52,279 nt of DNA from Nocardia wallacei (GTDB taxonomy: Bacteria > Actinomycetota > Actinomycetes > Mycobacteriales > Mycobacteriaceae). The stretch covers positions 1 through 52,279 of the forward strand of contig NZ_JARWQD010000070.1 of the NCBI RefSeq assembly GCF_029869545.1, given 5' to 3'. Made by a program: the position numbers and the translations under genes. Position 1 is the stretch's first letter. Every line of letters starts with the position of its first letter. Below the pieces are notes generated by a model. That model had not been told where the DNA came from, did no database searches, and worked only from the letters and a program-made list of their open reading frames with translations. This document shows positions 17,623 to 43,148 of the stretch, one piece after another.

Positions 17623-18606
17623 TCAGCCGAGCGCCCGCGTCGCCACCCTCGGCTGGCGCAGGCGCGCCGTGGCGGTGGCGCGGGCGAAGATCTGGTGTTC
17701 GGCGGTCTGAGCGGTGAGGGCGATCGTGGCCCGGTGGCCGGGTGTGTCGACGCGGCGGACGGTGGCGGTGAATTCCAGGTCGGTGGGGCGGTCGGGGGCG
17801 ATGTAGACCGGGTTGGCGAAATGTACGGCGTAGTCGCGCAGATCGGCGGGGGTGGCGAGGCAGTCGGTGAGGTAGGTGGCGCCGAGGCCCATGGTGAGCA
17901 TGCCGTGGGCGACGACCGTGGTCAGGCCCGCGGCGCGGGCGACGGTCTCGTTCCAGTGGATCGGGTTGTTGTCACCGGAGACTCCCGCGTAGTTGACCAG
18001 ATCGCCGCGTGTCAGCCGGTAGGTCCGACTCGGAAACCGGTGTCCGGCAACCAATTCCGTCTCCCCTGCACTGCCGTCACCGGCGTCCGGAGACAGGTCG
18101 GGTTGTCCCGTCACCTCGCGGGGTGGCGGGATCGGCGCCGAAAGCTGCTGCATGCCCAGGGATTCGGCGGCGTCATCCTCGCCCGTCACGCCGAGCAGGG
18201 TGGTGTGCACGGTCTGGACCAGGTCGCCGTCGTGATCGCGGATGGCCGTGGTGACGGTGACGAGGTCGCCGTTGGCGGTGGGATGGACGGAGTCCACGGC
18301 GAGTTCGCAGCCGAGCCGGTCGCCCGCGCGGACGGGGCGGTGCAGGTGTATCTCCTGCTCCAAATGCAGGAGCCGACTGTGCGGGTAGGCGGCCAGGGCT
18401 CGGTCGAACATGACGCGCTGCGCCGGGATGGCGATCGAGGACAGGAAGGTCACCGGTGCGATCAGGGCGGGGTGGCCGAGGGCGCGGGCCGCGTCGTCGT
18501 CCCAGTGCGCGGGGTGGAGATCCTGTACGGCGCGGGCGAATTCGCGGATCTTCTCGCGGCCGACCTCGTAGTAGTCGGTGCTCCGCAGGTAGTGCGGTGT
18601 GGTCAT
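17623..18606 (-). CDS. MaoC-type didomain (3R)-hydroxyacyl dehydratase, HadAB-like, in the NRPS-PKS operon
   Basis: A 327-residue protein made of two hot-dog domains. Residues 5-150 are HadA-like (FAS1 dehydratase region) and carry no catalytic pair. Residues 185-315 are MaoC-like, with the intact hydratase-2 motif YAGVSGDNNPIHWNE (D212, H217). Such proteins dehydrate 3-hydroxyacyl thioesters. The ATG overlaps the stop of the methyltransferase gene as ATGA, so it is the ninth and last gene of the assembly-line operon rather than a stray fatty-acid gene. The PKS module has no ketoreductase, so its substrate here is unclear. It may act on the malonyl-derived unit after reduction in trans, or supply a starter. 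Confidence 0.82.
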   Translation of the reverse strand: MTTPHYLRSTDYYEVGREKIREFARAVQDLHPAHWDDDAARALGHPALIAPVTFLSSIAIPAQRVMFDRALAAYPHSRLLHLEQEIHLHRPVRAGDRLGCELAVDSVHPTANGDLVTVTTAIRDHDGDLVQTVHTTLLGVTGEDDAAESLGMQQLSAPIPPPREVTGQPDLSPDAGDGSAGETELVAGHRFPSRTYRLTRGDLVNYAGVSGDNNPIHWNETVARAAGLTTVVAHGMLTMGLGATYLTDCLATPADLRDYAVHFANPVYIAPDRPTDLEFTATVRRVDTPGHRATIALTAQTAEHQIFARATATARLRQPRVATRALG

Positions 18607-19742
18607 GACCGGCCGCCCGCGGCCGGGTGCGGCTTGCGGGCGGCGAAGATCCGCTGCCCGTGTGGGGCCAGCGGATGCTCGGCCTCCGGAAGTACCAGCC
18701 AGGGCTCCAATCCGGCGGCTGTGAGGTCGTCCAGCCACTCGTGCACGCGCAGGAAGATGCGGTCGGTGCCCGCGCGGACGTCGTCCTGCCCCGGCGGGGT
18801 GCCTCCCGCCCTGGGCGACATGAGGAAGTGCATGGAGGTGAGCAATTGGCAGTGCTCGCGGCAGGATTCGACGAAGACCAGATGGCCGCCGGGAGCGAGC
18901 AGGTCGGCGAGCTGCCGCAGCGTCCTCCCGGTGTGGCGGGCATTGTGCAGGACGTTGGCCGCCAGCACGATATCGCACGGGGGTCGCCCGGGCAGGTCGG
19001 TATTCAGATCGACGATGCCGTACTGCATCCACGGATACTCGGCGAAGCGGTCGCGGGCGGCGGTGAGGAAGAAGGCCGACAGGTCGGTGAAGTGGTACTC
19101 GACCGGGGAATCACGCAGGGCGGCAACGATATCGGTCGTCGTTCCGCCGACTCCCGCGCCCAGTTCCAGGATCCGGACCGGTGAGCGTTGCTCACGCAGC
19201 TCGGCCACCAGACGGGAAATCACCTCGCGGGCAGCGACATTCAGGTACCGATTGACCGGGTTGGTGCGATAGGCCGCCTCGGCGGTGAAGAAGTCACCGT
19301 CGGGAAACAGCAGCTCCTGGGGCAGGACACGCTCCTGCAGCAGCGCGGACAGCTGCCGGTTCGCGCGGTCGAAGAACTGCGCGAGTTCCGGTGCGAACCC
19401 GAGGTCCGCGCACGCCTGGCGCAGCTGGGCGCGCTGCGGCGTGGCCGCCGGACGGGCGAGGTCGTAGCCGCGACCGGAGCTGTAGGACAGCTGGCCGCGG
19501 TCGGTGAGCTCGCGCAACCAACGCCGCAGCAGCCACCGATGCCGGGACGCGACACCCAGCCGGGTGGCGATCTGGGCCTCGTTGCGGGTAACGCTGTCCG
19601 GCAACGCGTTTCGCAGCACCCGGAGCATAGCGTGCAGCCCGAACAGGTCCAGGTCGTCGAGCGCGGAACGGCAGTGCCGGGTGTCCACGTCGGCGACCGC
19701 CTCGTCCGCGCGCCGGGCCACGTCGGCGAATACGGTCGTCAT
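18603..19742 (-). CDS. Stand-alone PKS-type C-methyltransferase
   Basis: A 379-residue SAM-dependent enzyme. Residues 1-180 are helical, with a winged-helix-like start. Residues 185-370 are a class I methyltransferase with motif I ILELGAGVGGTT (191-202), then EYHFTDLSAFFL and DIVLAANVLHNARH. This pattern (FTDxSxFF, ANVLHNARH, then PGGHLVFVES) is that of methyltransferase domains embedded in PKS modules of HMWP1-like siderophore synthases. Here it is a free protein in an operon whose PKS module lacks such a domain. I infer C-methylation of the malonyl-derived carbon in trans. It overlaps both neighbours by four bases. Confidence 0.8.
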   Translation of the reverse strand: MTTVFADVARRADEAVADVDTRHCRSALDDLDLFGLHAMLRVLRNALPDSVTRNEAQIATRLGVASRHRWLLRRWLRELTDRGQLSYSSGRGYDLARPAATPQRAQLRQACADLGFAPELAQFFDRANRQLSALLQERVLPQELLFPDGDFFTAEAAYRTNPVNRYLNVAAREVISRLVAELREQRSPVRILELGAGVGGTTTDIVAALRDSPVEYHFTDLSAFFLTAARDRFAEYPWMQYGIVDLNTDLPGRPPCDIVLAANVLHNARHTGRTLRQLADLLAPGGHLVFVESCREHCQLLTSMHFLMSPRAGGTPPGQDDVRAGTDRIFLRVHEWLDDLTAAGLEPWLVLPEAEHPLAPHGQRIFAARKPHPAAGGRS

Positions 19743-21133
19743 CGCCGCTCCCCCGCCGTCTCCCCGGTGCTCGGCGCAATGTTGTGGTTGCAGCGGAAGA
19801 GATTGTCCGGATCGTAGGTGGCCTTGATCTGAGTCAGGCGCCGGTAGGTGTCGGGACGATAGGCACTGCGGACACGGTCGGGAGTGGCGGTGCCGTCCAG
19901 GATTCCGACGTACGGCCCACCGGCGGAGCAGCCCCCGACCGCGGCGGTGATGTCGGCGATCCACTCCCGCGACCGGCCGAGATCGATGCCTGCCGGACCG
20001 CCGGAGAAGGCCACCAGGTGGTAGGCCGCGTCGTGGAAGCCGAACGATGTTGCCGCGGTGGGCATCCGGCGTATCGCGCCGCCGAGCTGATGGATGGACA
20101 GCAGGGAGTGCCGGGTGGGCATGCGCGCGCCCAGATCGACGAGGGCGTCGATGGCCGAATCGTCGAGCGCGCGCAGCCATTCGGTGCCGGTCGCGGTGGC
20201 GTGGCCCGTCGCGAACGCCTGCTCGGTATTGCGTTGCAGCTCCGGATAACTGACGGGGCGCATCAGGTCGAGTTCGGGTTCGCCGATGCGGCGCAGCTGC
20301 TCGAGCACGGGGCGGGCACGATCCGCCGCGCCCAGATACGACGCCGTGATCGCGGCCCGCGGCGGGCCCTCGGGTGCGCCCGGCGGCCAGTGAATCAGGG
20401 TGGCGCGCAACGACAGTTCCGGCGGCGCGGAGGCGGCGAACTCACGGAATCCGGCGAGTACGTCGCGCGCCTTGCGGTACGGGTAGAGCAGCGTACCCGC
20501 GTACACCCGGGGCACGGGGTGCAACTCCAGCTCGAGCGCGGTGACGATGCCGAAGTTCCCGCCCCCGCCGCGCAGCGCCCACAGCAGGTCGGGGTGGTCG
20601 TCGGCCGTGGCCGTCACGGTGCGCCCGTCGGCCAGGACGACCTGCGCGGACCGCACGTTGTCGCAGGTGAATCCGAAGGCGCGTTGCAGCCAGCCGCTAC
20701 CACCGGACAACGCGGTGCCGATCACGCCGACGGTCGAGACGTCGGCGCCGGTGACCGCCAATCCGTGTGCCGCGCAGGCACGATCGAACTGCACCCAGGT
20801 CACGCCGGGCCCCACGGTGACCCGCCGGGCCCCCGCGTCGACGGTGATTCCGTCGAGCCGGGACAGGTCGAGCATGAGCGACTCGGCGACCTCCGGATGC
20901 GAGGCCACGTCGTGACCGCCCGCGCGGACCGATACCGCCAGACCGTGCCGTCGCGCGTAGGTCACCGCGGTGGCGATGTCGGCGGTGTCGGCGCAGCGCA
21001 CGAGCACGGCGGGGCGGTGGTCGACGGCCGCGTTCCAGGTGTGGCGGGCCTGGTCGTAGCCGTCGTCGGCGGGACCGAGCACGGTACCGCGACAGGCCGC
21101 GGCGAGTTCGTCGAGTGCCGGAGTTGTCGTCAT
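19739..21133 (-). CDS. BBE-like FAD-linked oxidase
   Basis: A 464-residue oxidoreductase with an FAD_binding_4 domain (residues 40-180) and a C-terminal BBE motif, YDPDNLFRCNHNI. H74 in VRAGGH is the usual 8-alpha-histidyl flavin attachment site. The second attachment cysteine of bicovalent members (in GxCxxVG) is replaced by V132, so the FAD is probably linked once. There is no signal peptide, so it works in the cytoplasm. In this operon a likely role is oxidation of a thiazoline to a thiazole or of another C-N/C-C bond on the scaffold. The start overlaps the upstream stop as ATGA. Confidence 0.82.
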   Translation of the reverse strand: MTTTPALDELAAACRGTVLGPADDGYDQARHTWNAAVDHRPAVLVRCADTADIATAVTYARRHGLAVSVRAGGHDVASHPEVAESLMLDLSRLDGITVDAGARRVTVGPGVTWVQFDRACAAHGLAVTGADVSTVGVIGTALSGGSGWLQRAFGFTCDNVRSAQVVLADGRTVTATADDHPDLLWALRGGGGNFGIVTALELELHPVPRVYAGTLLYPYRKARDVLAGFREFAASAPPELSLRATLIHWPPGAPEGPPRAAITASYLGAADRARPVLEQLRRIGEPELDLMRPVSYPELQRNTEQAFATGHATATGTEWLRALDDSAIDALVDLGARMPTRHSLLSIHQLGGAIRRMPTAATSFGFHDAAYHLVAFSGGPAGIDLGRSREWIADITAAVGGCSAGGPYVGILDGTATPDRVRSAYRPDTYRRLTQIKATYDPDNLFRCNHNIAPSTGETAGERR

Positions 21134-22461
21134 CGGGGTGTGGGCTCCTCTGCTACCACGATGCGGGGAATCGGGGTGGCGGCGTGTGTGTCGAGATGGT
21201 CGATGAGCACTTCGGGCAGGCGTTGCCGTACGAAGCGGTCGAACGGGTCGTTGCACAGCGGGCGTAATGCGCTGCCGTCCAGCGCTTCCGAGCCCGGATA
21301 CCGGTCCGGTGCGCCGACGGCCAGGCGCCGGGCATCGGGCGAATCCAGCAGGACCGACCAGCCCGGCGGTGCGGCGGCGGCGAGTTCCGCCGGGCGCACG
21401 GCGCCGGGTGTCTCCTTGTCCAACAGGGCATTCGGAATGCCGGTGACGACCGTGCCGGGCGCGTCGCTCAGGCGGCCCAGCCGATCGGCGGGCGGTCCGG
21501 GCAGGTCGGCCCAGTCCACCGCCGCGGCCGGTGGGGGTGGCGGCGCGTCGACGGTGTAGACGATGTCGTAGCGGTATCGGGTGAGTTCGGTGTCGTCGCG
21601 AAATGGTTTGGCGTAGCAGGCCGTTCGGATATCGCGGCGATGCTGTCGAGCGATCCGCGCGAAGATCCGCGGGTCGCACAGCAGTTCCTCCTCCGCCGCC
21701 GAGCGCGCGTCCGCCCGGCGGGCCACCTCGTCCTCGGTGAGGCCCGGCTCGCGCGCCGATTCCAGCCACCGCGCGTACTCCACGGCGGTGCCGAGATTGC
21801 GAATATCGCCCACCACGACCGTGCCGCCCGCGGCGACCAGATCCAGCGCATCCGACAGCACCGCCGTCAGATACCGCTCGTCGGGGAAGCACTGGGTGAC
21901 GCTGTTGAGTACCACGCAGTCCGGCGCCGCGGCTCCCCCATCGGCACCGCGCACCGCCGCCGCGACGGGCTCGGACGCGAGTTCGTGTGCGGCCGCGCGC
22001 AGGACCCGCACCCCCGGCAGCCGTTGCTCCCGCAGCCGGGCGACGACCGGTTCGGCCACGTCCAGGCCCACGTAGCCGCCCACGTGGCGGTGGATGCGGT
22101 GCGCGAGCAGGCCACTGCCGCAACCGATTTCGAGCACGACGTGCGGCCGCGACCGCAGCACCAGTCCGACGGCGTGGTCGATCCACTCGAGCATGTGCGC
22201 CTTCGGGAACGGTGCACCGGTGTCGGAGGCCCGCCACCCGGACAGATCCAGGTCGTCACCGTGGCGGTCGGCCGCGGCGGTGTAGACGAACTCGTACACG
22301 TGCTGCCAGTGCGCCAGATGCTCGGTCAGCAGCGTCCCCGGCACCGGGCGCACGGCGATCGCGGCCGCGTCCGGGCGCACCACGATCGCGGTCCGGTCGT
22401 CGTTCCAGCGGGCGGCACCGACCCACGGATGCCGTTGCAGGACATCCACTATAGGCGTCAC
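21130..22461 (-). CDS. Stand-alone NRPS-type methyltransferase flanked by adenylation-domain remnants
   Basis: A 443-residue protein. Residues 45-305 match the methyltransferase domain usually inserted in NRPS adenylation domains: HWQHVYEFVY, SGWRASDTGAP, LEIGCGSGLL (110-119), VVLNSVTQCFPDERYL, VVGDIRNL, EEELLCDPRIF and ELTRYRYDI. Residues 1-42 (LQRHPWVGAARW...) and 310-440 (GIPNALL...LRPLCNDPFDRF...RLPEVL) look like the broken flanks of the C-terminal part of an adenylation domain. It therefore appears to have been cut out of an interrupted A domain. I predict N- or C-methylation of a ring or cysteine-derived unit in trans. The GTG start overlaps the upstream stop as GTGA. Confidence 0.8.
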   Translation of the reverse strand: MTPIVDVLQRHPWVGAARWNDDRTAIVVRPDAAAIAVRPVPGTLLTEHLAHWQHVYEFVYTAAADRHGDDLDLSGWRASDTGAPFPKAHMLEWIDHAVGLVLRSRPHVVLEIGCGSGLLAHRIHRHVGGYVGLDVAEPVVARLREQRLPGVRVLRAAAHELASEPVAAAVRGADGGAAAPDCVVLNSVTQCFPDERYLTAVLSDALDLVAAGGTVVVGDIRNLGTAVEYARWLESAREPGLTEDEVARRADARSAAEEELLCDPRIFARIARQHRRDIRTACYAKPFRDDTELTRYRYDIVYTVDAPPPPPAAAVDWADLPGPPADRLGRLSDAPGTVVTGIPNALLDKETPGAVRPAELAAAAPPGWSVLLDSPDARRLAVGAPDRYPGSEALDGSALRPLCNDPFDRFVRQRLPEVLIDHLDTHAATPIPRIVVAEEPTPR

Positions 22462-23657
22462 GGCATGGCCCCCGCGGACAGTTCGGCCGAGCCGAACAGG
22501 CGGTAGGCGCGTTCGGGATCGTTGGCGGCGTGGGCGCGCCCGGCGTGGGCGTCGCGCCAGAACCGCTGGATCACCGACCCGGAGCCGAGCGCCCGGCCGC
22601 CGGAGTTCTCGAACAGCCGGTCCACCGCGTGGATCGCGCGTTCGGTCCCGCGCACCTGGTCGCGGCGGGTGCGCAGCCGTTCGATCATCGGAATCGGGCG
22701 GCGTGCCTCGGCCAGCGCGCGCAGCGTGCCGATATTGCGGGTCAGCTGCAGCCAGGCGGCGTCGATCTCGCTGGCGGCCTCCGCGATGCGCACCAGCGTC
22801 GCCGGATCCTCCGCGAACGGCGTGCCGGTGAAACCGGTCTCCTTGCGGGCGTCCCCCGGGAGCGCCACCCGCACGCGCTGGCGCTGGTGGGCCAGGTGGG
22901 CCTCGTAGGCGCCCTGAGCCATGCCGATGATCGGGGTGGTGATCGCGCTCGGATGGATCGCGCCGAACGGAATCCGGTACAGCGCACCGTCGTTGACGTC
23001 CTGGCCCGGTGTCACGCACTTGCCGACCGCCTCGGCGCCGAGCACGCGGTGCGCGGGCACGAAGACATCGTCGATCACGAGATCGTTGCTCCCGGTGCCG
23101 CGCAGGCCCACGGCATCCCACACGTCCTCGATCGTGTAATCGCCGAGCGGCACGAGGAAGGTGGCGGATTCGACGGCCTCGCCGTCGACCACCACGCGGG
23201 CGCCGAGCAGCGCCCAGGCGGCGTGATCGCAGCCGGAGGCGAAACCCCATCGGCCGCTGAGCCGGTAGCCGCCGTCGACCGGCGTCGCCGTGCCGGTGAG
23301 GGCGTAGGACGAGCAGATCCGGGTGTCGCGGTCGCCGCCCCATACCTCGTCCTGGGCGCGAGCGTCGAACAGCGCGACGTTCCACGGCGGGACGCCCAGC
23401 GTCGAGGCGACCCAGCCGGTGGAACCGCAGGCCGCGGCCAGATCCCGCACAGCGGTGTAGAAGACGACAGGATCCGCCTCGAATCCACCGAAACGCTTGG
23501 GCTGCAACAGCTTGAAGAACCCGATCTCCTGCAGTGCCTTGATCGACTCGGCCGGAATCCGGCGCGCGCGTTCGGCCTCGGCGGCCCGCTCCCGCAGGGC
23601 GGGTCGCACATCGGCGACCGCCGCGAGCACCGTGTCGGCAGTGTTGTTGTCGCTCAT
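22458..23657 (-). CDS. Flavin-dependent monooxygenase, HsaA/acyl-CoA-dehydrogenase fold
   Basis: A 399-residue protein with the N-terminal helical, central beta and C-terminal helical layout of group D flavin monooxygenases. Diagnostic stretches are ERARRIPAESIKALQEIGFFKL, GFASGCDHAAWALLG and NSGGRALGSGS. Relatives such as HsaA and HpaB hydroxylate phenols using reduced flavin from a partner reductase; others oxidise amines or sulfur. No flavin reductase is encoded nearby. In this operon it is probably a tailoring hydroxylase, perhaps of an aromatic starter. It begins one base after the end of the upstream methyltransferase gene. Confidence 0.8.
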   Translation of the reverse strand: MSDNNTADTVLAAVADVRPALRERAAEAERARRIPAESIKALQEIGFFKLLQPKRFGGFEADPVVFYTAVRDLAAACGSTGWVASTLGVPPWNVALFDARAQDEVWGGDRDTRICSSYALTGTATPVDGGYRLSGRWGFASGCDHAAWALLGARVVVDGEAVESATFLVPLGDYTIEDVWDAVGLRGTGSNDLVIDDVFVPAHRVLGAEAVGKCVTPGQDVNDGALYRIPFGAIHPSAITTPIIGMAQGAYEAHLAHQRQRVRVALPGDARKETGFTGTPFAEDPATLVRIAEAASEIDAAWLQLTRNIGTLRALAEARRPIPMIERLRTRRDQVRGTERAIHAVDRLFENSGGRALGSGSVIQRFWRDAHAGRAHAANDPERAYRLFGSAELSAGAMP

Positions 23658-23658
23658 A

Positions 23659-24408
23659 TCAATCCTGTTCCTCCGTGGTGAACCGCAGCAGACCCGTCCC
23701 GGCGTCCGCGGCGGCCAGCCGCAGCCCGGCGGCGCGGGCCTCGGCGTCGAGCCGCTCGGCCGCCGCGGGCCAGACCCGGTGCTCGGTGATCGCCTCCTGT
23801 AGCAGCCGGTCGTCCCGATAGCTGCGATAGGTCATGCGCCACACCAGCGACTCGTCGTCGACCGGATCCGCGCGGCTCCAGCCCTCGTAGTGCACCGCGC
23901 CCGCCCGCGTCCGGGTGTAGCGCCGTTCGGGGTCCGCGGCGACCCGGCCGGGACGCTGGATCTCGACGACGGCCGCGGCGCCGGGTGCGAGCGCGCCCGC
24001 GATCGTCGCCCACACGCGCGGCCGCGTACGCGGATCGAAATGCCCGATCACGCCCAGCGCCACGACCGCCGCGCAGCGCGACGGCAGGTCGGTGTCGAGA
24101 AACCCGCTGGGCAGCACGGTGATTCGGTCCCGCAGATCGCGGCGGGCGGCGAGCCGCGACACCAGCACCGCGCGCATGGCCGCCGCCGGTTCGACCGCGA
24201 TGATCTCCGCGTCCGGCAGGGCGTCGGCGATCAGCATGGTCGACAGCCCGGTGCCCGCGCCGATGTCGATCACGGGACCGGCGACGGTATCGGTCTCGGC
24301 GAGCATCGCCGACAGGACCGGATCGAGCTGCGCCACATAGGGTGTCGCCATCAGGTCGTAGAACTCCGCGGCCGCCGCATAGGAGTCCGCGCCGGGCGCC
24401 TCAGTCAT
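23659..24408 (-). CDS. Class I SAM-dependent methyltransferase (third of the operon)
   Basis: A 249-residue Rossmann-type methyltransferase with motif I VIDIGAGTGLSTMLIA, acidic loop AVEPAAAM and GVIGHFDP in the motif IV region. It starts YAAAAEFYDLMA, as small-molecule methyltransferases of the Methyltransf_25 type often do. Unlike the other two in the operon, it does not look like a domain taken from a synthase. It overlaps the stop of the large NRPS-PKS gene by eight bases. An O- or N-methylation late in the pathway is likely, but the site is unknown. Confidence 0.8.
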   Translation of the reverse strand: MTEAPGADSYAAAAEFYDLMATPYVAQLDPVLSAMLAETDTVAGPVIDIGAGTGLSTMLIADALPDAEIIAVEPAAAMRAVLVSRLAARRDLRDRITVLPSGFLDTDLPSRCAAVVALGVIGHFDPRTRPRVWATIAGALAPGAAAVVEIQRPGRVAADPERRYTRTRAGAVHYEGWSRADPVDDESLVWRMTYRSYRDDRLLQEAITEHRVWPAAAERLDAEARAAGLRLAAADAGTGLLRFTTEEQD

Positions 24409-27400
24409 CGCGCGCCCCGTCCTCCGTGCGCGCCAACGCCTGGGACACCAGGTCGGCGACGGTGTCGACGGCCGGTTCCCGCAGCAGCGCGTAATGGTGT
24501 GCCGCGGCGGTGTGCAGATCGAGGCGGCCCTTGGTGTGGGCGCCCCAGCCGAGGTCGGGCAGATCGGTGCAGTCGTCGACCCCCATCCCCACGCCGGAGT
24601 TGCGCGGTGCGGCGAATTCGGCTCGTACCACGAGGGTTTCGAGGCCGTCCCCGTCGAGTACACCGGTGGTGTGGTCGCCGAGTGCCCGCAGGTGGCGCCG
24701 GAAGATGCTCTCCCGCAACCGCTGTGCCGTCTCGTCGCGCCCCGCGAGCCCCGCGGCGGCCAGGCGGCGGTCGACCTCGGCGTGCTGGTCGCCCTCGGGC
24801 CGCTGCTCGAAACCCTCGCCCAGGGTCGTGGATTCGAGGTCGATATCGAGGAAGGCTTCCAGCGAGCCGAGATACCGCGACCAGAACCCGATGTCGGAAT
24901 GCCGGATCCGGTCGGCGATATTGGCGTCGACGAGGACGAGCAGCGCCACCGTCTCTCCGGCCGCGCGGAGCCGCCGGGCCAGTTCGTGGGCGACGATGCC
25001 GCCCATCGACCATCCGCCCAGCCGATACGGGCCCGCGGGCTGATGCGCCCGCAGGACGGTCTCATACGCCCGCGCCAGCTCGCCGATACTGCCCGGGCCC
25101 GGCGCCCCGGCCAGGGCCGGGTCCTGCAGGCCGATCACCGGTCGTCCCGTATCCAGCTTGCGGGCCAGATCGACATAGCAGAGCACGTCACCGCCCGTAG
25201 GGTGCAGCAGGAACAGCGGCTCCCCCGTGCCGTCGCGCAGGGTGACCGCACAGTCCGCGGGCGGCGGTGCGACCTCGGTGCGCGCGGCCGCGGCGGTGGC
25301 CGCGAGCGTCGGGTCGGCGAGGAAATCGCGCGGGGCGACCACCAGTCCGAGATCCGCGCGCAACCGGTTCAGCATGCGGATGGCCAGCACCGAATCGCCG
25401 CCGAGCGCGAAGAAGTCGGCCGCACGGTCGATACCCGTCGCATCGCACCCCAGGTCGAGCAGTCGCGCCCACAGTTCGGCGATACCGCGCTCGGTGTCGT
25501 CCGCCGGTGGGCCGCCGTGCACCGCCTCCATCCGCCGTGCGCCGGAGTTGTCGGGCGCGCGTCCCGCCGACGGCAGTTCGACCGTGGCCGACCAGGTTCC
25601 GGCATCGTCGACCAGGGCCGTGACCTCGGCGCGGATGGCGGCGAACAGGTCGTCGAGCACGCCGGGGGCGAACAGCTCGGCCACCGCGTCCAGATTCACC
25701 ACCACCGCGTCGTCCCAATCCCATTGGAACACCTGCATATCCAACGCCACCTGCGGCGTGCGCACGCGCTGATAGAAGTCGCGCACCCGCACCGACTCCG
25801 GGGTGCCGCCCGGCGGGTGCAGCCCCAGGGTGCTGTGGAACACGACCGGCGCCTGCGGGGCGGTGTCGCGGCGGCGGCGCCCGAGCTCGCGCACGATCTC
25901 CACCCCCGTGACCTGCCCGTGGTCGAGCATGCGGGCGGTCGCCTCCTGCATGTGCCGCGCCGCGGTCGCGAAACTCGCCCCGGCGGGCAGGTCGACGTCG
26001 AGCAGCACGGTGCCGGCGTAGGGGCCGATCGCGTGGTCCAGGTCGCGGGGCAGGTGCAATCGGTTGAGGTACAGCACATTCAGCAGGAACCGGCGGTGCC
26101 CGGCCAGCCTGGCCAGGGCGATGGCGTAGCAGGTGGCGAACGCGGTCGTCGGCGTGATGCCGTATTCCGTGCAGCGCTCGCGCAGCACGGCCATCTGCTC
26201 GCCCGTGATCCACAGTTCCCGTCGCTCCAGGTCGTCCGGGCGCGCCTGTTCGACGGGCATGGTGAACGGCAACCGGGGCGCGGTGGGCAGGTCGTCGAGC
26301 CGCTCCCACCACCAGTCGCGCTGCGCCTGCCACTCCGGTTCGAGCCGCTGCCGCCGCACGGTCTCGACGTAGTCGCCGAAATGCGCGGTGAGCGGCGGCA
26401 ATACGACGTTCGGATCGTCGAGGCGGGTGAACAGCTCGGTGAACATCAGCTGCACCGACCAGCCGTCGGCGACCAGCAGGCTGCTCACGATGTGCAGGCT
26501 CAGTTCCTCGCCCGGCAGGCGCAGCGCGGTGACCCGGAAGGACCAGGGATCCATATCCGGCCCGGAACGCTGCATCCGCGTGCGGGTTTCGGCGCGCACC
26601 CGATCGATCTCACCGATATCCGCGGCACGCAGGTCGATCTCGGTCAGCGGCAGCGCGGCCAGGCGCGGGTCGTCGTCGGTCAGCACCTGTTGCGAGCCGT
26701 CGGGCAGGAAGATCGCGCGCAGCATCGGCTGCCGCCGCACCTGCCAGCGGATCGCGTTCGCGACCTCCTCCGGATCGACCCCGGCCAGCCGGAAATCGAC
26801 GTACATGTGCGCGGAGTCGTAGCTCAGCGCCCAGCCGTGCTGCTGGCCGACCCAGTACGCCTGCTGCAGCGGGGTGAGCGCGAACGGGGCCGCGGGGTCG
26901 TCCTGGTGGGCGAGTTCGATTCCGGCCGTGGCACCTTCGCTCCGTCGCTCGGTGATGAATGCCACCAGTTGCGCCAGGGTCTGATCCCCGACCAGGTCGA
27001 CCACCGGCACCGCGACGCCGAGGCGGCCGCGCACCATGGTCGCCATCCGGACCGCCAGCACCGAGTCGCCACCGAGTCCGACGAACGTCGAGTCCGCCTG
27101 CACGACAACGGGATCGACGCCGAGCACCTGTGTCCAGATCGCGGTCACCGTCGCGGCGATGTCCGCTCCGCCGTCCGACAGGCGCGGACCCGCCTGCGCA
27201 TCGGTCCAGCTGCCGGAGTCCTCGACGAGCAGGCGCAGCCACGACAGGTAGGCGTCGAAGGCCGTGTCGGCGTCGTCGGGATCGAGCACGGTCTCCAGCA
27301 CGTCCCATTGCAGCTGCAGCGCCCCGGCGTGCACGAACGCCTGGTGGTCCAGCCAGACCTGCGGTGTTTGGCTGACGCCGTGCACGATGCGGCCCGCCCA

Positions 27401-31600: not shown

Positions 31601-32094
31601 GCGACGATCTCCAATTCCGTTGCTACCGAGGTCTTGTCCTGCATCAGCGCCAGCACCGGGCACGAGGACTCCACCAGCTGCTGTAGGTGCCGGTACCGGT
31701 CCGGATCCTGCGGGCCGCGCACCCGCACCCGCATGCGGACCGCGCCGGGCCGGGCCGGTTGGTCGATGCCGAAGACCGGGCCCATATCGACGGCGGCCTC
31801 GACATCCACCGCCAGGGAGGTCATCTCGACGCCGAGGCGGGCGGCGTGGAACCGGTAGGTCGCCAGCTGGCAGGCGCCGAGGGCCGCCAGGGCCAGGCCG
31901 ATCGGATCCGGTCCCGCGTCGCCGCCGCCCGCGGGCACCGGCTCGTCGACCACGAGCGTGTGCCCGTTGATCCGGATCGTCATCTCGGTCGGGGTGCCGG
32001 GGCGGTGCTCGGCGTGCGCGGCGAAACGCTGCGTCCGGTCGGTGCGCCGCCGCAGGGTTTCCGCGATTCGAAGTACTGTGTCGCCGAAGGTCAT
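31597..32094 (-). CDS. OsmC-family protein between the two synthases
   Basis: A 165-residue cytoplasmic protein of the OsmC/Ohr peroxiredoxin-like fold. Both family cysteines are present, C75 in GACQLATY and C145 in SSCPV, so thiol-dependent peroxidase chemistry is possible. It overlaps the upstream NRPS stop and the downstream PKS-NRPS start by four bases each, so it is an integral part of the operon. OsmC proteins are unusual in thiazoline pathways. It could protect or process the cysteinyl thiol intermediates, or simply protect against peroxide. The role is not known. Confidence 0.85.
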
Positions 32095-35000
32095 ACGGCC
32101 TCCTCCCCCGATCCGGTCACGGAGTAGCGCGCCGCGTGGGCCAGGCGCCGCCGACGACCGCGCTCGGCCGCCGCGGAGAGATCGATACGGTGCCGCACCG
32201 CGGCATCGACCGGCCGAGATCGCCCGGTCCGCACCGCGATCCACGCCGCCACCCGGCGAATGGACCCGTGGCGGAACATATCCGGAACGGTGAGGTCCGG
32301 CGCCAGGTGCCGGAGGCGGCGGTGGGCGCGAACCAACGTCAGCGATGTCGCCCCCAGGTCGTGGAACGGCGTGGCGGGATCTATTCCGGGGCCGAGCAGT
32401 TCGGTGAAGACCGCGGTCACGGCCTGCTCGAGGTCGGCCGGTGGGTCCACCGCGACGCCGTCGGCGGCCTCGGCGACGTCCCCGGTCTCGGGCTCCACCG
32501 TGTCGGGCAATGCCGGGGCCGCCTGCCCGATACCGTTGCGGCGCAGCGGGTTCGGCAGCTTCGACAGGTCGACCTTGCCGTTGGCCGTCAGCGGTATGGC
32601 GTCCATTCGCACCCAGTGCGCGGGCACCATATAGCGCGGGAGGTGCCGGGCGGCATGGGCGGCCAGGGCCTGCGGGTCCACCTCGTCGGCGACGAGGTAG
32701 GCGACCAGTTGCGGGCGGTCGTCGGCGCCGGGTACCGCCGCCGCCACGCAGCGGCGCACCCCCGGCAGCCGGGTCACCACGGCATCGATCTCGCCCAGTT
32801 CGATCCGGTGACCGCGAATCTTCACCTGGCGATCGGCGCGGCCGAGGAATTCGATGGTCCCGTCGTGCCGCCACCGCCCCAGATCCCCTGTGCGATACAG
32901 CCGTTCACCCAGCGCCTCGTCGTGGACGAATCGTTGCGCGGTCTGCTCGGCGTCGCCGACGTAGCCGCGCGCGAGCCCGGCACCGCCGATGTGCAGTTCG
33001 CCGGGGGCGCCGACCGGGCAGGGCCGTCCGTCGTCATCGAGGATCAGGAAGAACTGGTCGCGCAGCGCCCGCCCGTACGGGATGCTCGTCCAGTCCGGCG
33101 GCACCCGGTCGATCGGATAGCAGATCGACCAGATGGCGGCCTCGGTCGCGCCGCCGAGGCTGATCACCCGGACGTCGCCGATCACCGCGCGCAGGCGGTC
33201 CGGCAGCGAGATCGGAATCCAGTCCCCGGACAGCAGCATCACCCGCAGCGAGGCCAGCCCGGCCGCCGCGGCGGGGTCGGCCTCGGCGTACTCGATCAGC
33301 ATCTCCGCCATCGCGGGTGCCGTATTCCACACCGTCACACCGTGTTCGGCGATCAGCTCGCACCAGTGGCCCGGATCGCGCAGGCGCTCGACATCGGGCA
33401 GCACCAGGGCGCCGCCGACGCCGAGGACGCCGAAGATGTCGTAGACCGACAGGTCGAAGCTCAGCGCCGACAGCGCCAGCACCCGATCGTCCGGGCGGAT
33501 GCCGAACCGGTCGTTGATGTCGTCGATCGTCGTCCGCGCGGCCCGGTGCTCGACAGCCACACCCTTCGGCTCCCCCGTCGATCCCGAGGTGAAGATGATG
33601 TAGGCCAGATCGTCGGGCGCCGGACGGACCGGATCGGCATCCCCGGCAGGCTCGGCGTCGATCGCGTATCCGACGACGTTGTCCGGCAACCTGTCCCGCG
33701 CCTCGGGTGCCACGAGCGCATGGGCGATCTCGGCGCGGGCGCACACCGACGCGATCCGCTGCGGCGGCCAGTCCGGCTCGATCGGCACGAAGGACGCGCC
33801 CGCCTCGATGACCGCGTACACCGCGGCGATCTGCCCGGGCGACTTCGGCGCCACCACCGCGACCCGATCGCCCGCGGCGACACCGGCCGAGGTCAGCCGC
33901 GCGGCCAGCGCCCGCGCCCGGCCGAACAATTCGGCGTGGGTCCACGAGCCCGCGGCCCCGAGCACCGCGGTCCGGTCCGGGGTCGACCGCGCGATCTCCC
34001 GCTGCGGGTCGGTGAGCAACGGGCCGGACCCGGCGTCGGCGTCCAGGCGCTGCATCGCCTCGAATGCCGGATTCCATCCCAGATCGACTGTCTCCCAGTC
34101 GGTGTCGCTGTCGGCGAGGCGCCGCAGTAATCGGGTGTAGGCCGACAGCATCTGCTCGGTCAGCGCGACGGGCAGCACCTGCTCGACCGCGTCCCACGCG
34201 ATCCGCAGCGCACCGGCCTCATCCCACACGATGTGATCGAGCACCACCTGCGGCGTCTGCGACACCCCGAAGATCTCGGCACCGAGCCAGCCCGCCGCGG
34301 CCGACTCGCCCTGCCCCAGCCCCACACCGCTGGTGAACACCACCGGATACCGCGGTGTCAGGTCCGCGGTCTGCATCCGCTGCACCTCGACACCGCTGTG
34401 GGAGCGGTGCTCAAGATCGGCCCAGAATCGGGTGTTGACCCGGGTGGCGAAGTCGGCGAATCCCCGCCACGAGCGCAGGTCCACCGCGGGCAGCTCGACC
34501 AGCGCCGTGGTGCTGAAATCGCCGACGACCCCGTCGTGCGCGTCGGCGTCGGGGCGATCGAACAGCGTCGTGTTCAGGCAGAACGGTGCGGTCGCTCCCC
34601 AGCGGTGCAGCGTCAGCGCGAAGGCGGCCAGCAGGACCGCGGTCGGGCTCAGACCGCGCGCCGCCGCCCGCCCGGTGAGGGCCGTCCACCGCGCGGGCTC
34701 GAGCCGCGCGGCGTGCCTGCGGAAGTGCGGCCGGTGCACCCGTTCGGGCGCCGTCGCGTACGGGAGGGCGGGGCCGGGCGGCAGGTCGGCGGCCCGGCCG
34801 CGCCAGTAGTCGCGGTCGCGCCGCCACACCTCGGAGTCCTTGCGCTCCTCCAGAATTCGCAGGAACGAGGTCGGCACGGGCGGCAACTCGAGGCCCGGAT
34901 CGGCGACCAGTCGGCCCCACTGCCGCATCAGCAGGATCCAGCCCGCCATATCCAGCACGATGATGTCGAATCCGACGAACATCCGCAGGCCGCCGGACGG

Positions 35001-35681
35001 CAACAGCGCGGCATGGATATCGAACAGCGGCCAGATCGCGGTGTCGCGCACCTGATGTGACTTCTCCCGGCGCAACCGCGCCAGCACCGATTCGGCCTCG
35101 GCGGGCCGCTCCCGCAGATCCGTGACGCCGAGACGATAACGCGGACCCGCAGGTTCGACCCGCTGCCTGCCGTCCTCGGTGACCGTCGCGCGCAGCATGT
35201 CGTGGTGGTCGACCAGCCGGTTCCAGGCCGCTTCCAGCGCGGCCACCTCCGCGGCCGCGTCGCCGGTGACGAATTCCGCTGCATCGCGGTCGAATTCGAA
35301 GTAGTAGTGGGTCGAGACGCCGCCCAGCGGCAGATCCGGATCGCGCCCCACCCAGTACGACGCCTGAATCGGTGTCAGCTCCGCCTCGACGACCGCCGCC
35401 TCCCCCGGCGCGGCTTCCGCTGCGCCCGTGGGCTTCTCATCGCTGTGATCCTCGGCACGCCGGGCGACCTCCGCGGTCAGCGAGTCGAGGGTGGCGCCCA
35501 CGAAGGCATCCAGCGGTACCCGCACTCCGGTCCGCTCGGCCAGCCGCAGGTGCAGCCGGACCGCGAGAAACGAGTCCATTCCCAATTCCTGTAAGCGGCG
35601 ATCGGAACCGATATCGTCCGCCTGTACGCCGAGGACCGTCCCGATACATCGACGTACCTCGTCTGCCGTTGCTGCCACCAT
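32091..35681 (-). CDS. NRPS: carrier-Cy-A(Cys)-PCP, loading and first thiazoline module
   Basis: A 1196-residue synthetase resembling the first half of HMWP2/PchE. N-terminal carrier 5-75 (S37 in LGMDSF, acting as an aryl or acyl carrier). Heterocyclisation domain 95-530 with D239/D244 (DIIVLD), T450 and D482. Adenylation domain 555-1045, whose pocket residues read D743 L744 Y747 N786 L816 S818 L842 I850 W851 K1036, the classical cysteine code. PCP S1113. It would join a starter to cysteine and close a thiazoline. As the only A domain here it must also charge the downstream PCPs. It is the first gene of the operon, behind a Zur-type box. No starter-activating ligase is encoded in the window. 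Confidence 0.93.
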
Positions 35682-35714
35682 CTCCAGCCCTTGCTAGGGG
35701 AAACCGACACGGCT

Positions 35715-35743
35715 ACATTAATGAAAACGACTTTCATTAGCAA
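35715..35743 (-). promoter_or_regulatory. Likely promoter of the NRPS operon
   Basis: On the minus strand TTGCTA (35738-35743) and TAATGT (35715-35720) are separated by exactly 17 bases, and the Zur-type box fills the spacer. A repressor bound there would block RNA polymerase. The -10 matches the consensus only moderately. Confidence 0.5.
35719..35739. promoter_or_regulatory. Zur-type box between the NRPS operon and the divergent AKR operon
   Basis: TAATGAAA, five bases (ACGAC), TTTCATTA: a 21-base inverted repeat with eight-base perfect arms in an otherwise GC-rich setting. Its core TGAAAACGACTTTCA differs from the actinobacterial Zur consensus form TGAAAATGATTTTCA at two of 15 positions. 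It does not resemble the IdeR/DmdR iron box (TTAGGTTAGGC type). It sits 37 bases before the NRPS start codon and 57 bases before the aldo/keto reductase start codon, so one site could repress both directions in zinc-replete cells. Confidence 0.8.
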
Positions 35744-35796
35744 TTCCCACCGGTGGCGACCCATGCCACCGCGAGCACCGCCGGAGAGGGCGAAAG

Positions 35797-36891
35797 ATGT
35801 TGGCAGAACAGCGATCACGGCCGTCGAACGGGCACGCGAGCGCGCTCGACAGCTACCGATTGCTCGGCCGGTCCGGGCTGCGGGTGTCCCCGCTGGCGCT
35901 GGGCACGATGACCTTCGGCACCGAATGGGGCTGGGGCTCGGACAAGGACGAGGCGCGGTCGGTCTTCGACACCTACGTCGGCCGCGGCGGCAACTTCCTC
36001 GACACCGCGAACCGCTACACCGGCGGCACCGCCGAGGAGTGGCTCGGGGAGTTCGCCGCGCCCGTGCGCGAAAGCCTGGTGCTGGCAACGAAATACACCG
36101 GCACGCAGCGGCTGACCGACCCGAACTCCGGCGGCAATCACCGCAAGAGCATGGTCGCGTCGGTCGAATCGAGCCTGCGCCGGCTGCGCACCGACTATCT
36201 CGACCTGCTGTACGTGCACATGTGGGACGGACTGACCCCGGTCGAGGAGATCCTGCGCGGCCTCGACGACCTGGTGCGCGCGGGTAAGGTGCTCTACGCG
36301 GGGATCTCGAACACCCCGGCCTGGCAGATCGCCCGCATGCAGACGATCGCCGACCTGCGCGGCTGGTCCCCCCTGGTCGCCCTGCAGATCGAATACAACC
36401 TGCTGGAACGCACCGGCGAGCGCGAACTCGTCCCCATGGCACGCGAACTCGGCCTCGGCGTGATCCCCTGGTCACCGCTGGCGAGTGGCGTCCTCACCGG
36501 CAAGTACGCCCGGGCCGACCTCACCACCGACGCGGCGGCGTGCCGGGCCGGATCGCGGCGCGACCTCGCCGTCGCCAACGGGTCGCTCACCGATCGCGGT
36601 CTCGCCATCGCCGCCGTGGTCGCCGATATCGCCGATCAGCTCGGCCGCACCCCGGCCCAGGTCGCCGTGGCGTGGACGCTGCGGAATCCGGCGGTGACCG
36701 CCCCGATCCTCGGCGCCCGCACGCCCGCGCAGCTCGCGGACAATCTCGGCGCCCTCGACCTGGAGTTCGACGACGAGCATCTGCGCCGGCTGCACGATGC
36801 CTCCGCGGTGGACCTCGGCTACCCGCACGACTTCCTCGACCGGCCGCTGGCGCGCAGCGCGATCTTCGGCGATACCCGGATCGCGCGCTGA
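35797..36891 (+). CDS. Aldo/keto reductase, divergent from the NRPS operon
   Basis: A 364-residue NADPH-dependent oxidoreductase with the AKR catalytic tetrad D69, Y74, K99 and H141, in DTANRY, TKYTG and YVHMWD. It also has the C-terminal cofactor-binding region PAQVAVAWTLRNPAVTAPILGARTPAQL. GGAGAGG precedes the ATG. It is the first gene on the other side of the Zur-type box. Because the PKS module has no ketoreductase domain, this enzyme is a candidate to reduce the beta-keto group or an imine in trans. That is a hypothesis. Confidence 0.88.
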   Translation: MLAEQRSRPSNGHASALDSYRLLGRSGLRVSPLALGTMTFGTEWGWGSDKDEARSVFDTYVGRGGNFLDTANRYTGGTAEEWLGEFAAPVRESLVLATKYTGTQRLTDPNSGGNHRKSMVASVESSLRRLRTDYLDLLYVHMWDGLTPVEEILRGLDDLVRAGKVLYAGISNTPAWQIARMQTIADLRGWSPLVALQIEYNLLERTGERELVPMARELGLGVIPWSPLASGVLTGKYARADLTTDAAACRAGSRRDLAVANGSLTDRGLAIAAVVADIADQLGRTPAQVAVAWTLRNPAVTAPILGARTPAQLADNLGALDLEFDDEHLRRLHDASAVDLGYPHDFLDRPLARSAIFGDTRIAR

Positions 36892-36948
36892 GCCGTGAGC
36901 GATCGTCTCCGGCGTCCGGAAACCGATACGACAGAGAGGAAGTGGGCG

Positions 36949-37581
36949 ATGACTGGCGTCGCCGACCTGTTCACCGAGCATCTGCTGCGCAGACCGCGCG
37001 GCCCCATCGCACGATTCTGGTGGCGCGATATGAAGGCCCACCACGACATCTTCCGCGAGACACTCGCCGCGCTGGACCCGCGCCCGGAGGACAATCTGAT
37101 CGAAATAGGCTGCGGTGGCGGCACATTCGTCAACTGGGCGCTCGCCTCCGGCTGCCGGGCCACCGCCGTCGACCACAGTGCCGACATGGTCGCGCTGACC
37201 GAACGCAACAATGCCGACGCGGTCCGCACCGGCGCCCTGACGGTCGTCCACGCCTCCGCCGAACAGCTGCCCCTCCCCGACGGCACCTTCACCGCGGCGG
37301 CGCTGATGAACGCGCTGTTCTTCCTCGACGCCGCCGCGGCCCTCGCCGAACTCCACCGCGTGCTGGCCCCGTCCGGCCGCCTCGTGCTGCACACCCTCGC
37401 CCCGAACCCACCCGCCTCCCTCGCCCCCGCCCCGGTGGCCCGCCGCATGCGCCTGTACACCGACGACGAACTCCGGTCCCTGCTCACCACGGCGGGCTTC
37501 ACCGAAACCCGAGTCACCCGCTCCGGCAAGGGTTTCCAATCGGCCACCGCCGTCCGCCCCGGAGATCGTCAGCGAAGATAG
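36949..37581 (+). CDS. Class I methyltransferase (UbiE-like)
   Basis: A 210-residue SAM methyltransferase with motif I LIEIGCGGGTFVNWAL, acidic loop AVDHSADMV, then HASAEQLPLPDGTF and ALMNALFFL, typical of Methyltransf_11. The ATG at 36949 has AGGAAG eight bases upstream; a GTG at 36895 would add 18 unlikely residues. It follows the aldo/keto reductase after 57 bases and probably shares its promoter, making it the fourth methyltransferase near the synthases. The palindrome GGTCGATCGACC begins on its last base (37581-37592). Confidence 0.82.
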   Translation: MTGVADLFTEHLLRRPRGPIARFWWRDMKAHHDIFRETLAALDPRPEDNLIEIGCGGGTFVNWALASGCRATAVDHSADMVALTERNNADAVRTGALTVVHASAEQLPLPDGTFTAAALMNALFFLDAAAALAELHRVLAPSGRLVLHTLAPNPPASLAPAPVARRMRLYTDDELRSLLTTAGFTETRVTRSGKGFQSATAVRPGDRQRR

Positions 37582-37629
37582 GTCGATCGACCGATTCGGA
37601 AGTGCCCGTGGGACGTTCACCATGGGCCC

Positions 37630-39024
37630 GTGACACGAATGCTACGGGGTGTGCTGGCCGCGGTGGGCTGTGCGGCGCTTGTGGCGCTGTGCGAGCCCGG
37701 TGCCGCGTCGGCGCATCCGATGCCGGGCACCAAGGTCCTGCTCGATGTGCGCGAGACGGCGATCGAGGCCGAATTGCTGATCCCTACAGGACATCTCGCG
37801 GAGGCCAGCGGTATCGATCTCGACCTGCGCACGGAGCTGTCGGCCGAGGACCGCGCGGGGCTGGCGAGCTATGTGCGTGACCATGTGCGGCCCGCCACGC
37901 CCGACGGGACGCCGTGGACCGTCCGGATCGGCGATATGCGACTGGACTACACGGACCGGACGGCCACCGGTCCGTACCGCGAACTCGTCGTCCAGGCCGT
38001 GCTCACCCCGCCGACGGGCGCCGAGATGCGCCGCTTCGTGTTCGGTTACGACGCCGTCATCCGCGAGGTGGTCACGCACACGGCCATCGTCGCGGTCCGT
38101 CAGGACTGGCGAGCCGGGCAGGTCGACCCCGGCAACGACGCCCGGCAGATCGGCGTCGTCCGCACGGACGCCGAGTCCATGACCGTGCCGCCCCTCGCGG
38201 TGGATCTGGCCGATGCCGGGGCGTGGCGCGGTTTCGCGGGAATGGTGGCGCTCGGTGGACGCCATATTCTCGAAGGCACCGACCATCTCCTGTTCCTGTT
38301 CACCCTGCTGCTACCGGCCGTGCTGGTCGCCGGGGCCGGGCGCTGGCACCCGGACACCCGCCGACGCCGTGCCGTCCGGCACATCCTCGCCGTCACGATC
38401 GCATTCACCCTGGGACACTCCGCCGCGCTCATCGCCAGCGCTCTGACTCGACTGGAGATTCCCGCGCGTCCGGTCGAAACACTCATTGCCGCAACGATTC
38501 TGGTGGGCGGAGCCCACGCCGTGCGGCCGCTGTTCCCGGGCCGGGAGGCCGTTGTCGCCGGGGCATTCGGGCTCGTCCACGGGATGGCGTTCTCGTTCAC
38601 CCTGGCCGAATTGCGGTTGTCCACCGGCCAATCGGCGCTCGGCGTGCTCGGATTCAATCTCGGCATCGAGGCCGTCCAGGTGCTGCTCGTCGCGCTCGCC
38701 CTGCCGCCCCTGCTGGTGCTGGTCACCACCCGCGCCCAACCGGTCCTGCGCGTCGGCGGCGCGCTCCTGGTGATGATCGCCGCCCTCGGCTGGGCATTCG
38801 ACCGGCTCGGATTCGCCAACCCGATAGCCCGCACCGCGGACCAGGGCGGCAGCCTGCTGCTGCCGATCGTCGTGATCGCGGCCGTCGCCGCCGTCGTGGT
38901 CCTGGCCGGACGAGCGCTCGGACGGTCACGCGTGGCGCAGCAGCGCCCCGACGCCGTCGGGCGGGGCGTGGTCGCGGTCGGTGGTGACGACGGAGGCGCG
39001 GGCGGCCAGGGCGGCCAGCGGTAG
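37630..39024 (+). CDS. HupE/UreJ_2-type membrane protein, putative metal permease
   Basis: A 464-residue protein. A signal peptide ends ASA before a mature N-terminal histidine, HPMPG. Residues 32-185 form a soluble outer domain. The membrane part of the HupE_UreJ_2 family follows, with RHILEGTDHLLFLFTLLLP, HGMAFSFTLAEL and FNLGIEAVQVLLVALALP. Relatives are proposed to move nickel or other divalent metals. The GTG start lacks a clear ribosome site; an ATG at 37639 is an alternative. Gene order after the aldo/keto reductase and methyltransferase, downstream of a Zur-type box, makes it a candidate zinc or metallophore-related permease. The last 99 bases overlap the convergent gene. Confidence 0.78.
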   Translation: MTRMLRGVLAAVGCAALVALCEPGAASAHPMPGTKVLLDVRETAIEAELLIPTGHLAEASGIDLDLRTELSAEDRAGLASYVRDHVRPATPDGTPWTVRIGDMRLDYTDRTATGPYRELVVQAVLTPPTGAEMRRFVFGYDAVIREVVTHTAIVAVRQDWRAGQVDPGNDARQIGVVRTDAESMTVPPLAVDLADAGAWRGFAGMVALGGRHILEGTDHLLFLFTLLLPAVLVAGAGRWHPDTRRRRAVRHILAVTIAFTLGHSAALIASALTRLEIPARPVETLIAATILVGGAHAVRPLFPGREAVVAGAFGLVHGMAFSFTLAELRLSTGQSALGVLGFNLGIEAVQVLLVALALPPLLVLVTTRAQPVLRVGGALLVMIAALGWAFDRLGFANPIARTADQGGSLLLPIVVIAAVAAVVVLAGRALGRSRVAQQRPDAVGRGVVAVGGDDGGAGGQGGQR

Positions 39025-43126: not shown

Positions 43127-43148
43127 CAGCACAAACTCCTGGAACGGG

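Follow-up and report, generated by a model that had tools for sequence, protein, structure and literature searches.

A predicted Zur-controlled thiazoline polyketide–peptide cluster of Nocardia as a probable zincophore pathway

Yersiniabactin and like thiazoline siderophores bind iron, and yersiniabactin is built by the HMWP2/HMWP1 pair, in which the PKS module includes KR and MT domains. The metal of a thiazoline metallophore is difficult to assign from sequence. In actinobacteria, the coelibactin cluster of Streptomyces coelicolor is described as a Zur-controlled NRPS metallophore cluster (PMC6103462, PMC3430247), in whose biosynthesis the P450 CYP105N1 is used, and a coelibactin-like cluster has been predicted in N. 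cyriacigeorgica GUH-2 (PMC3751702). Nocardia also yields uniformides A and B, which are reported to be cytotoxic; uniformide A and the antibiotic transvalencin A are described as zinc complexes, with the zinc held by a row of five-membered rings (PMC11364655). Searches on zincophores, Zur and Nocardia metallophores turned up, in the portions of the literature available, no description of the cluster reported here.

The window, that is, the whole stretch of 52,279 nucleotides of Nocardia wallacei DNA that was analysed, contains a Nocardia cluster of eleven genes (17623–37581). We propose, with a probability of about two in three, that the cluster is Zur-repressed and that zinc shortage leads to a thiazoline polyketide–peptide that probably binds and delivers zinc. 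Nine of the genes form an operon on the minus strand (17623–35681), with domains confirmed by Pfam and NCBIfam. As the initial annotation had it, most overlaps in this operon are of four bases: six of the eight junctions are of this kind, one is an 8-base overlap and one a 1-base gap. The operon begins with an NRPS of carrier-Cy1-A-PCP order (32091–35681), followed by an OsmC-family protein (31597–32094) with two cysteines invariant in all five aligned orthologues, and a PKS-NRPS (24401–31600) in which the Pfam domains read KS-AT-ACP-Cy2-PCP-Cy3*-PCP-TE, without a KR domain. Cy3*, at approximately 25571–26905, is a third Cy-like domain in which the first Asp of the DxxxxD motif is replaced. 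Downstream lie the methyltransferases MTa (23659–24408), MTb (21130–22461) and MTc (18603–19742), an HsaA-like flavin-dependent monooxygenase (22458–23657; 577 bits against an HsaA cut-off of 450), a BBE-type FAD oxidoreductase (19739–21133) that is nearest to BagK and FevA1, far under both cut-offs, and a didomain dehydratase of fused HadA-HadB (MaoC) type (17623–18606).

The divergent set that had been described as sharing the intergenic region with the operon is present on the plus strand, 115 bases away, as an aldo-keto reductase (AKR; 35797–36891) and a methyltransferase, MTd (36949–37581, start picked by eye). The HupE-like gene (37630–39024) that had been counted in this set does not belong to it; it is absent from all seven other fully read clusters of this type, and we reject it as a cluster member. 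Pfam matches of the cluster genes include no salicylate synthase, aryl-AMP ligase, or importer or exporter, and among the eleven genes there is no cytochrome P450 (Pfam) and no halogenase (Pfam/NCBIfam). The only salicylate synthase above cut-off in the genome lies on contig 171, outside the cluster. Scans for tRNAs and Rfam families found nothing. The cluster shows no dedicated chelator gene and is therefore of the kind missed by a chelator-gene rule; the predicted operator supplies the metal signal otherwise missing from the gene content.

That operator is a perfect 8-5-8 palindrome, TAATGAAA-N5-TTTCATTA, at 35719–35739, between the two directions of transcription; no other inverted repeat was reported for the 115 bases of this intergenic region. 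The 8.07-Mb genome has a single copy of TGAAAANNNNTTTCA. Against the 24-position Zur consensus published for mycobacteria, as quoted in PMC7174638, the site agrees at 22 of 24 positions, so that the Zur-like box proposed initially for the shared region is borne out. Allowing up to three mismatches, the consensus has 26 oriented matches in the whole genome, or 21 distinct sites after merging, and the cluster operator is among the eight distinct sites with two or fewer; the reversed pattern, used as a control on the whole genome, gave no match. Likewise, 40 mononucleotide shuffles of the window (2.09 Mb) contained no site at 21/24 or better.

Gene context was inspected for 12 of the 21 sites. 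The best-matching box of the genome precedes a gene for a family-5 solute-binding protein (SBP_bac_5), and others lie at smtB-zur, at an ABC-3 permease of zinc type and at an LCM-type methyltransferase; two sites fall at the CobW-L31//L28-S14-S18 alternative ribosomal-protein genes, and znuA has a site with three mismatches. Two of the eight best sites (C79 and C239) have no clear zinc target adjoining. The family-5 binding protein is one candidate importer for the product. Of the 17 genomes with the OsmC gene, 2 encode it, namely the window genome and N. mexicana, and a role as the general importer is unsupported beyond these two.

The operator is also kept across clusters of this type. Among 18 distinct ones, 17 have it at 21/24 or better, the sole miss being a metagenome-assembled genome with a degenerate box only. 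Genes for znuABC, CobW/L31/S14 or another Fur-family protein adjoin 6 of the 18, and at 10 of the 18, including the window and its nearest relative N. mexicana, the flank read holds no strong zinc-gene match. Of the relatives from outside the genus, five of five have a 20–21/24 box no more than about 100 bases from the NRPS start, and one of these clusters adjoins CobW/L31/L28/S14/S18; an Archangium match from a metagenome-assembled genome (35% identity) was left out. Promoters of other multi-Cy NRPS genes carry the box in three of four cases, the exception being L131 (genome G037). The genome survey, which scored three candidates per genome, gave a count of at least 7 of 397. Consensus match, occurrence of the motif at known Zur targets, conservation and neighbouring zinc genes together support the Zur-type control that had been suggested; in silico, support for zinc control of the cluster is strong. 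Zur is likely to bind the palindrome and to control both directions of transcription simultaneously. Zinc-bound Zur would repress both from this single shared site, and zinc shortage would relieve the repression.

As for the product, the first carrier domain would take a starter acid, probably aromatic; since the cluster shows neither a salicylate synthase nor an aryl-AMP ligase, we suppose that synthesis and activation of this acid take place outside it. The A domain of the NRPS has the residues DLYNLSLIW in 13 of 13 sequences, which we take to be the code for cysteine, and PDB matches of the NRPS include the Cy domain of Irp2/HMWP2 and the pyochelin enzyme dihydroaeruginoic acid synthetase. 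The DxxxxD motif is intact in Cy1 (13/13) and Cy2 (12/12), and its first Asp is missing from Cy3* in 12 of 12 orthologues. Cy1 would add and cyclise cysteine, and the PKS module would contribute a two-carbon unit. The keto group of this unit would be reduced by the AKR of the divergent pair, acting in trans as the proposed ketoreductase, and HadAB would perhaps dehydrate after this reduction. Cy2 would form a second cysteine-derived ring, the atypical Cy3* would add the last unit, and the TE would release the product. The single cysteine A domain would have to load several carriers, partly in trans. The methyltransferases and the HsaA-like and BBE-type flavoenzymes would decorate the product.

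Other PKS-NRPS proteins of Nocardia and other actinobacteria do carry a KR domain; among the matches listed, these relatives are about 2,670–2,930 aa long, with 39–66% identity across some 60% of the query, and we found no product described for any of them. In the clusters read, they share with the window cluster the NRPS, KS-AT, Cy3* and several methyltransferases. In contrast, they keep the cis KR and lack the AKR, HadAB and HsaA-like genes, which are found in eight of eight clusters read without a cis KR and in none of seven with one (two read in part, on the reductase side; in G370 and G244 the reading extended 0.8 and 1.5 kb upstream of the NRPS, and a more distant AKR is possible there). 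These counts are without L067 and G144, for which no full PKS was read, and without the second Cy-rich locus of G139, whose PKS match spans the Cy-to-TE half only. The AKR is not a cluster-specific marker, because 83 of 150 Nocardia genomes have relatives of it at 65% identity or above and the window genome has a second copy, on contig 105; the two Nocardia genomes with a cis KR are not among the 83. HsaA relatives at 63–68% are likewise common elsewhere. It is tempting to propose, though at somewhat less than even odds, that the Mycobacteriales possess an undescribed family of Zur-controlled thiazoline polyketide–peptide zincophores, whose Nocardia branch lost the cis KR and recruited the AKR, a HadAB of mycolic-acid type and an HsaA of steroid-degradation type for a polyketide link made in trans, with Cy3*, devoid of DxxxxD, forming a different ring or bond.

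Could the box be read otherwise? Fur and Zur boxes resemble each other, the genome has three Fur-family genes, and thiazolines of yersiniabactin type bind iron, so the box might answer to a Fur-family protein other than the zinc-sensing Zur, and the product might be an iron siderophore or a general metallophore. We consider this improbable, since the same motif stands at znuA, smtB-zur and the alternative ribosomal-protein genes. In addition, with the IdeR consensus as generally known, no IdeR-like site was found in the window at five or fewer mismatches, and the 2-kb promoter regions of orthologous loci had none either (12 of 12), whereas the same consensus finds such sites at the nocobactin locus of this very genome; IdeR control is rejected on this ground. 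Still less probable is that the box governs only the divergent AKR/methyltransferase pair, with the synthase operon under other control. The predicted AKR start codon does lie within the box in several orthologues, and a promoter scan of the intergenic region showed nothing of sigma-70 type in either direction. Against this, the box is 38–58 bases upstream of the NRPS start codon, and out-of-genus relatives without the AKR retain it beside the NRPS start.

A further explanation accepts Zur control and differs about its purpose: the product would not carry zinc but would be a metabolite with bioactivity or cytotoxicity, released when zinc is scarce. The cluster has no transporter, and the cytotoxic uniformides and the zinc complexes of uniformide A and transvalencin A (PMC11364655) offer a possible precedent, the more so as clusters resembling those of the two compounds also have Zur-type boxes, at 21–22/24. 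We regard this explanation as unlikely, since zinc-uptake genes adjoin some orthologous clusters and family-5 binding-protein matches lie within the clusters of out-of-genus relatives, both of which point to uptake. The roles of zinc-binding toxin and zinc carrier are not mutually exclusive. The like operators at the look-alike clusters suggest that transvalencin and uniformide may also be products of zinc starvation. The distribution of the cluster is of medical interest: its named carriers include N. africana, N. pneumoniae and N. cyriacigeorgica, a recognised agent of human nocardiosis (PMC3751702), and the presence of the cluster in the last may bear on zinc supply in that disease.

No near-identity to a described pathway was found in the searches made, the coelibactin and transvalencin clusters being compared by description and not gene by gene. 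Relative to nocobactin and mycobactin, the window cluster lacks both an IdeR-type operator and an NbtC/MbtD-type PKS; its PKS falls far under the NbtC and MbtD cut-offs, and the true NbtC of the genome is on contig 182 (1424 bits, above cut-off). For transvalencin and uniformide, salicylate synthase and halogenase genes were taken as the expected features, deduced from structure and from locus L129; the look-alike loci encode a salicylate synthase, a P450 and a protein with weak likeness to halogenases. All of these are absent from the window cluster, and the one look-alike that was read gave no KS-AT match. Coelibactin is, like the product proposed here, the work of an actinobacterial NRPS cluster, Zur-controlled there and predicted to be so here. 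By description, it is set apart by its use of a P450, which the window cluster lacks, and by the KS-AT-ACP module of the window cluster; to our knowledge, no PKS takes part in coelibactin biosynthesis. The domain content had been called yersiniabactin-like, and this holds loosely. Set against the yersiniabactin layout as generally known, the window cluster places one ring ahead of its PKS module, which is followed by two Cy-type domains, and it is without cis KR, cis MT, or a salicylate synthase or ligase in the cluster, so that domain order differs. What the two do have in common is the carrier-Cy-A start, a cysteine-activating A domain feeding Cy, rings derived from cysteine, as predicted for the window cluster, a KS-AT module and a Cy-PCP-TE end.

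The nine minus-strand genes (NRPS, OsmC, PKS-NRPS, a methyltransferase, an HsaA-like gene, a second methyltransferase, a BBE-type gene, a third methyltransferase and a HadAB/MaoC didomain) form one run from 35681 to 17623 of contig 70, in a genome of 8.07 Mb and 399 contigs. Their eight junctions comprise six 4-base overlaps, one 8-base overlap and one 1-base gap, which bears out the operon with mostly four-base overlaps proposed in the initial annotation. Divergent from this run are genes for an aldo-keto reductase (AKR, 35797-36891), a methyltransferase (MTd, about 36949-37581) and a HupE/UreJ_2 protein (37630-39024). The HupE-like gene had been counted in the set; we reject it as a member because it is missing from the seven other fully read clusters of the window type, and the cluster limits are therefore 17623-37581. 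Farther along the window, a fumarate reductase-type flavoprotein is fused to HEAT repeats (40445-43195), with an NMT1-type ABC transporter nearby (44782-46209).

The 115-base intergenic region common to both gene sets holds a single perfect inverted repeat (8-5-8), at 35719-35739, and this site agrees at 22 of 24 positions with the mycobacterial Zur consensus in PMC7174638, so the Zur-like box claimed for this region is indeed there. When the window was shuffled 40 times by mononucleotide (2.09 Mb in all), no site reached 21/24 or more and four reached at least 20/24. Over the whole genome, the consensus with up to three mismatches gave 26 oriented hits, which merge into 21 distinct sites, and the reversed pattern at the same threshold gave none; a looser pattern, used earlier, found 20 sites vs 1 for its control. 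Eight distinct sites have at most two mismatches. Besides the cluster operator, they lie at an SBP_bac_5 gene, smtB-zur, an LCM-type methyltransferase gene, CobW-L31//L28-S14-S18, an ABC-3 permease gene and, with two mismatches and no clear zinc target, at C79:12284 and C239:12244. The genes around the C79 site include no obvious target, and a neighbor of the C239 site resembles, by eye, the end of a metal P-type ATPase. Three mismatches separate the site at a znuA gene (PF01297) from the consensus. This set reads as a putative Zur regulon because the M. smegmatis Zur-regulated genes listed with motifs in the same paper are similar: ZnuABC, CobW-like proteins, a methyltransferase and alternative ribosomal proteins. 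Gene context was read for 12 of the 21 sites, and some of the remainder may be chance. The best site of the genome, with one mismatch, is at C209:27475-27498 (L025:4476-4499), just upstream of the SBP_bac_5 gene, whose product is a possible candidate for the importer of a zinc-metallophore complex.

The operator is conserved with the cluster. A scan of named genomes with the OsmC alignment found 13 loci, 12 of them the window cluster (11 Nocardia and one Mycobacteriaceae MAG), and 17 of 150 genus genomes, the window genome counted, have an OsmC of at least 52% identity; the clusters of two of these 17 (G127 and G145) belong to the kind whose ketoreductase is built in (cis KR). Pooling both sources gives 18 distinct window-type clusters, with some duplicate assignments inferred; the AKR-NRPS junction has a site of at least 21/24 in 17, the exception being the MAG, with a degenerate box. 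In six loci (L056, L064-L067 and L069), the box contains the predicted start codon of AKR, as if the message were leaderless. Within the flanks read, six of the 18 clusters have zinc or Fur-family neighbors. N. pseudovaccinii and G057 have znuABC-like genes together with one of the Fur family, the MAG has two boxes and genes for CobW, L31 and S14, and the neighbors in BSTN01, N. africana and N. sienata are Fur-family genes. Two (G023 and G147) have an SO_0444-like permease only, and ten have neither, weak ABC-ATPase matches aside; these counts are not independent, as flank lengths are unequal and the genomes related.

Might iron be the signal instead? A scan with the IdeR consensus finds IdeR-like sites in this genome at the nocobactin locus (contig 182; NbtC, 1424 bits vs a cut-off of 1150). 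The window has none at up to five mismatches, nor do the 2-kb promoter regions of orthologous loci (12/12) at up to six, and iron control looks unlikely. Control by Zur is well supported by the sequence evidence.

The NRPS is carrier-Cy-A-PCP, and the PKS-NRPS (2,399 aa) is KS-AT-ACP-Cy-PCP-Cy-PCP-TE. The A-domain residues are DLYNLSLIW, the cysteine code, in 13/13 orthologues. The DxxxxD motif is intact in Cy1 (13/13) and Cy2 (12/12); the third Cy-like domain, Cy3, lacks the first Asp in 12/12 orthologues and in 8/8 further relatives compared. No cluster gene matches salicylate synthase or aryl-AMP ligase, and genome-wide a single salicylate synthase scores above the family cut-off, on contig 171. 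The HsaA-like protein scores 577 bits vs the HsaA cut-off of 450, and the MaoC didomain 358, narrowly above the fused HadA-HadB cut-off of 350; for the BBE-type enzyme, BagK/FevA1 come closest, but its match is far under both cut-offs.

A search with the PKS-NRPS protein scored 7,981 candidates, and the best 120 were considered; the matches listed include a Nocardia group without KR (full-length members 2,367-2,565 aa) and a wider group with KR (about 2,670-2,930 aa). Among 15 cluster regions read, all eight without a KR match have AKR, HsaA-like and HadAB genes, and all seven with one (two Nocardia, five other genera; KR confirmed with Pfam in three) have none of these, although the AKR count is partial in G370 and G244, where the sequence read reached just 0.8 and 1.5 kb beyond the NRPS on its upstream side. 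Most simply, AKR would act as a trans-acting reductase in clusters without KR, with HadAB perhaps dehydrating afterwards. This should not be pressed too far: 83 of 150 Nocardia genomes have relatives of AKR, the window genome has a second copy of it, and relatives of HsaA, at 63-68%, are common in other genera, e.g., Tsukamurella and Amycolatopsis. AKR and the HsaA-like protein look like recruited enzymes.

The boxes extend to a wider family. Used as a query against 397 genomes of the order, the Cy3 piece gave strong matches in at least seven, five outside the genus, a lower bound since only three candidates were scored per genome. Each of the five loci outside the genus has a box of 20-21/24 no more than about 100 bases from the NRPS start; 20/24 is near the shuffle background, so position weighs more than score. 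Weak matches to the family-5 (SBP_bac_5) binding protein occur in 5/5 of these regions at E 1e-6 and 3/5 at 1e-8. In G533 (contig 55, 10000-48900; L184, L185), the cluster adjoins CobW, L31, L28, S14 and S18, with five boxes of 20-22/24. Both cis-KR Nocardia clusters have a 21/24 box near the MTd gene. A box of 21-22/24 is also present in three out of four further multi-Cy NRPS promoters, in the gap that separates the NRPS from a divergent gene (L128:6226, L129:109, L130:233). These three loci resemble the clusters of the zinc complexes transvalencin and uniformide; for L129, we infer the likeness from its genes, among them one for a salicylate synthase (407 bits), a P450 gene and one whose product has weak similarity to the halogenase CmlS.

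That Zur controls the coelibactin cluster and further metallophore clusters of actinobacteria is established (PMC6103462). Nocardia is the source of the zinc complexes uniformide A and transvalencin A (PMC11364655); for a relative, mupirochelin, LC-MS suggests that it chelates zinc (PMC10080011), and a coelibactin-like siderophore is predicted for N. cyriacigeorgica GUH-2 (PMC3751702). By term counts, a Nocardia genus survey (PMC7413640) does not mention yersiniabactin, coelibactin or zinc. Among the papers listed on zincophores, Zur-controlled metallophore clusters and Nocardia, we found no description of the window cluster. The best explanation is that the product would act as a zincophore, as the initial annotation proposed. 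The synthases had been called yersiniabactin-like, and the cluster does share the assembly-line type of yersiniabactin, yet lacks tested defining features of that system. Likewise, it shares with coelibactin its type of switch, yet is without tested defining features of the coelibactin system.
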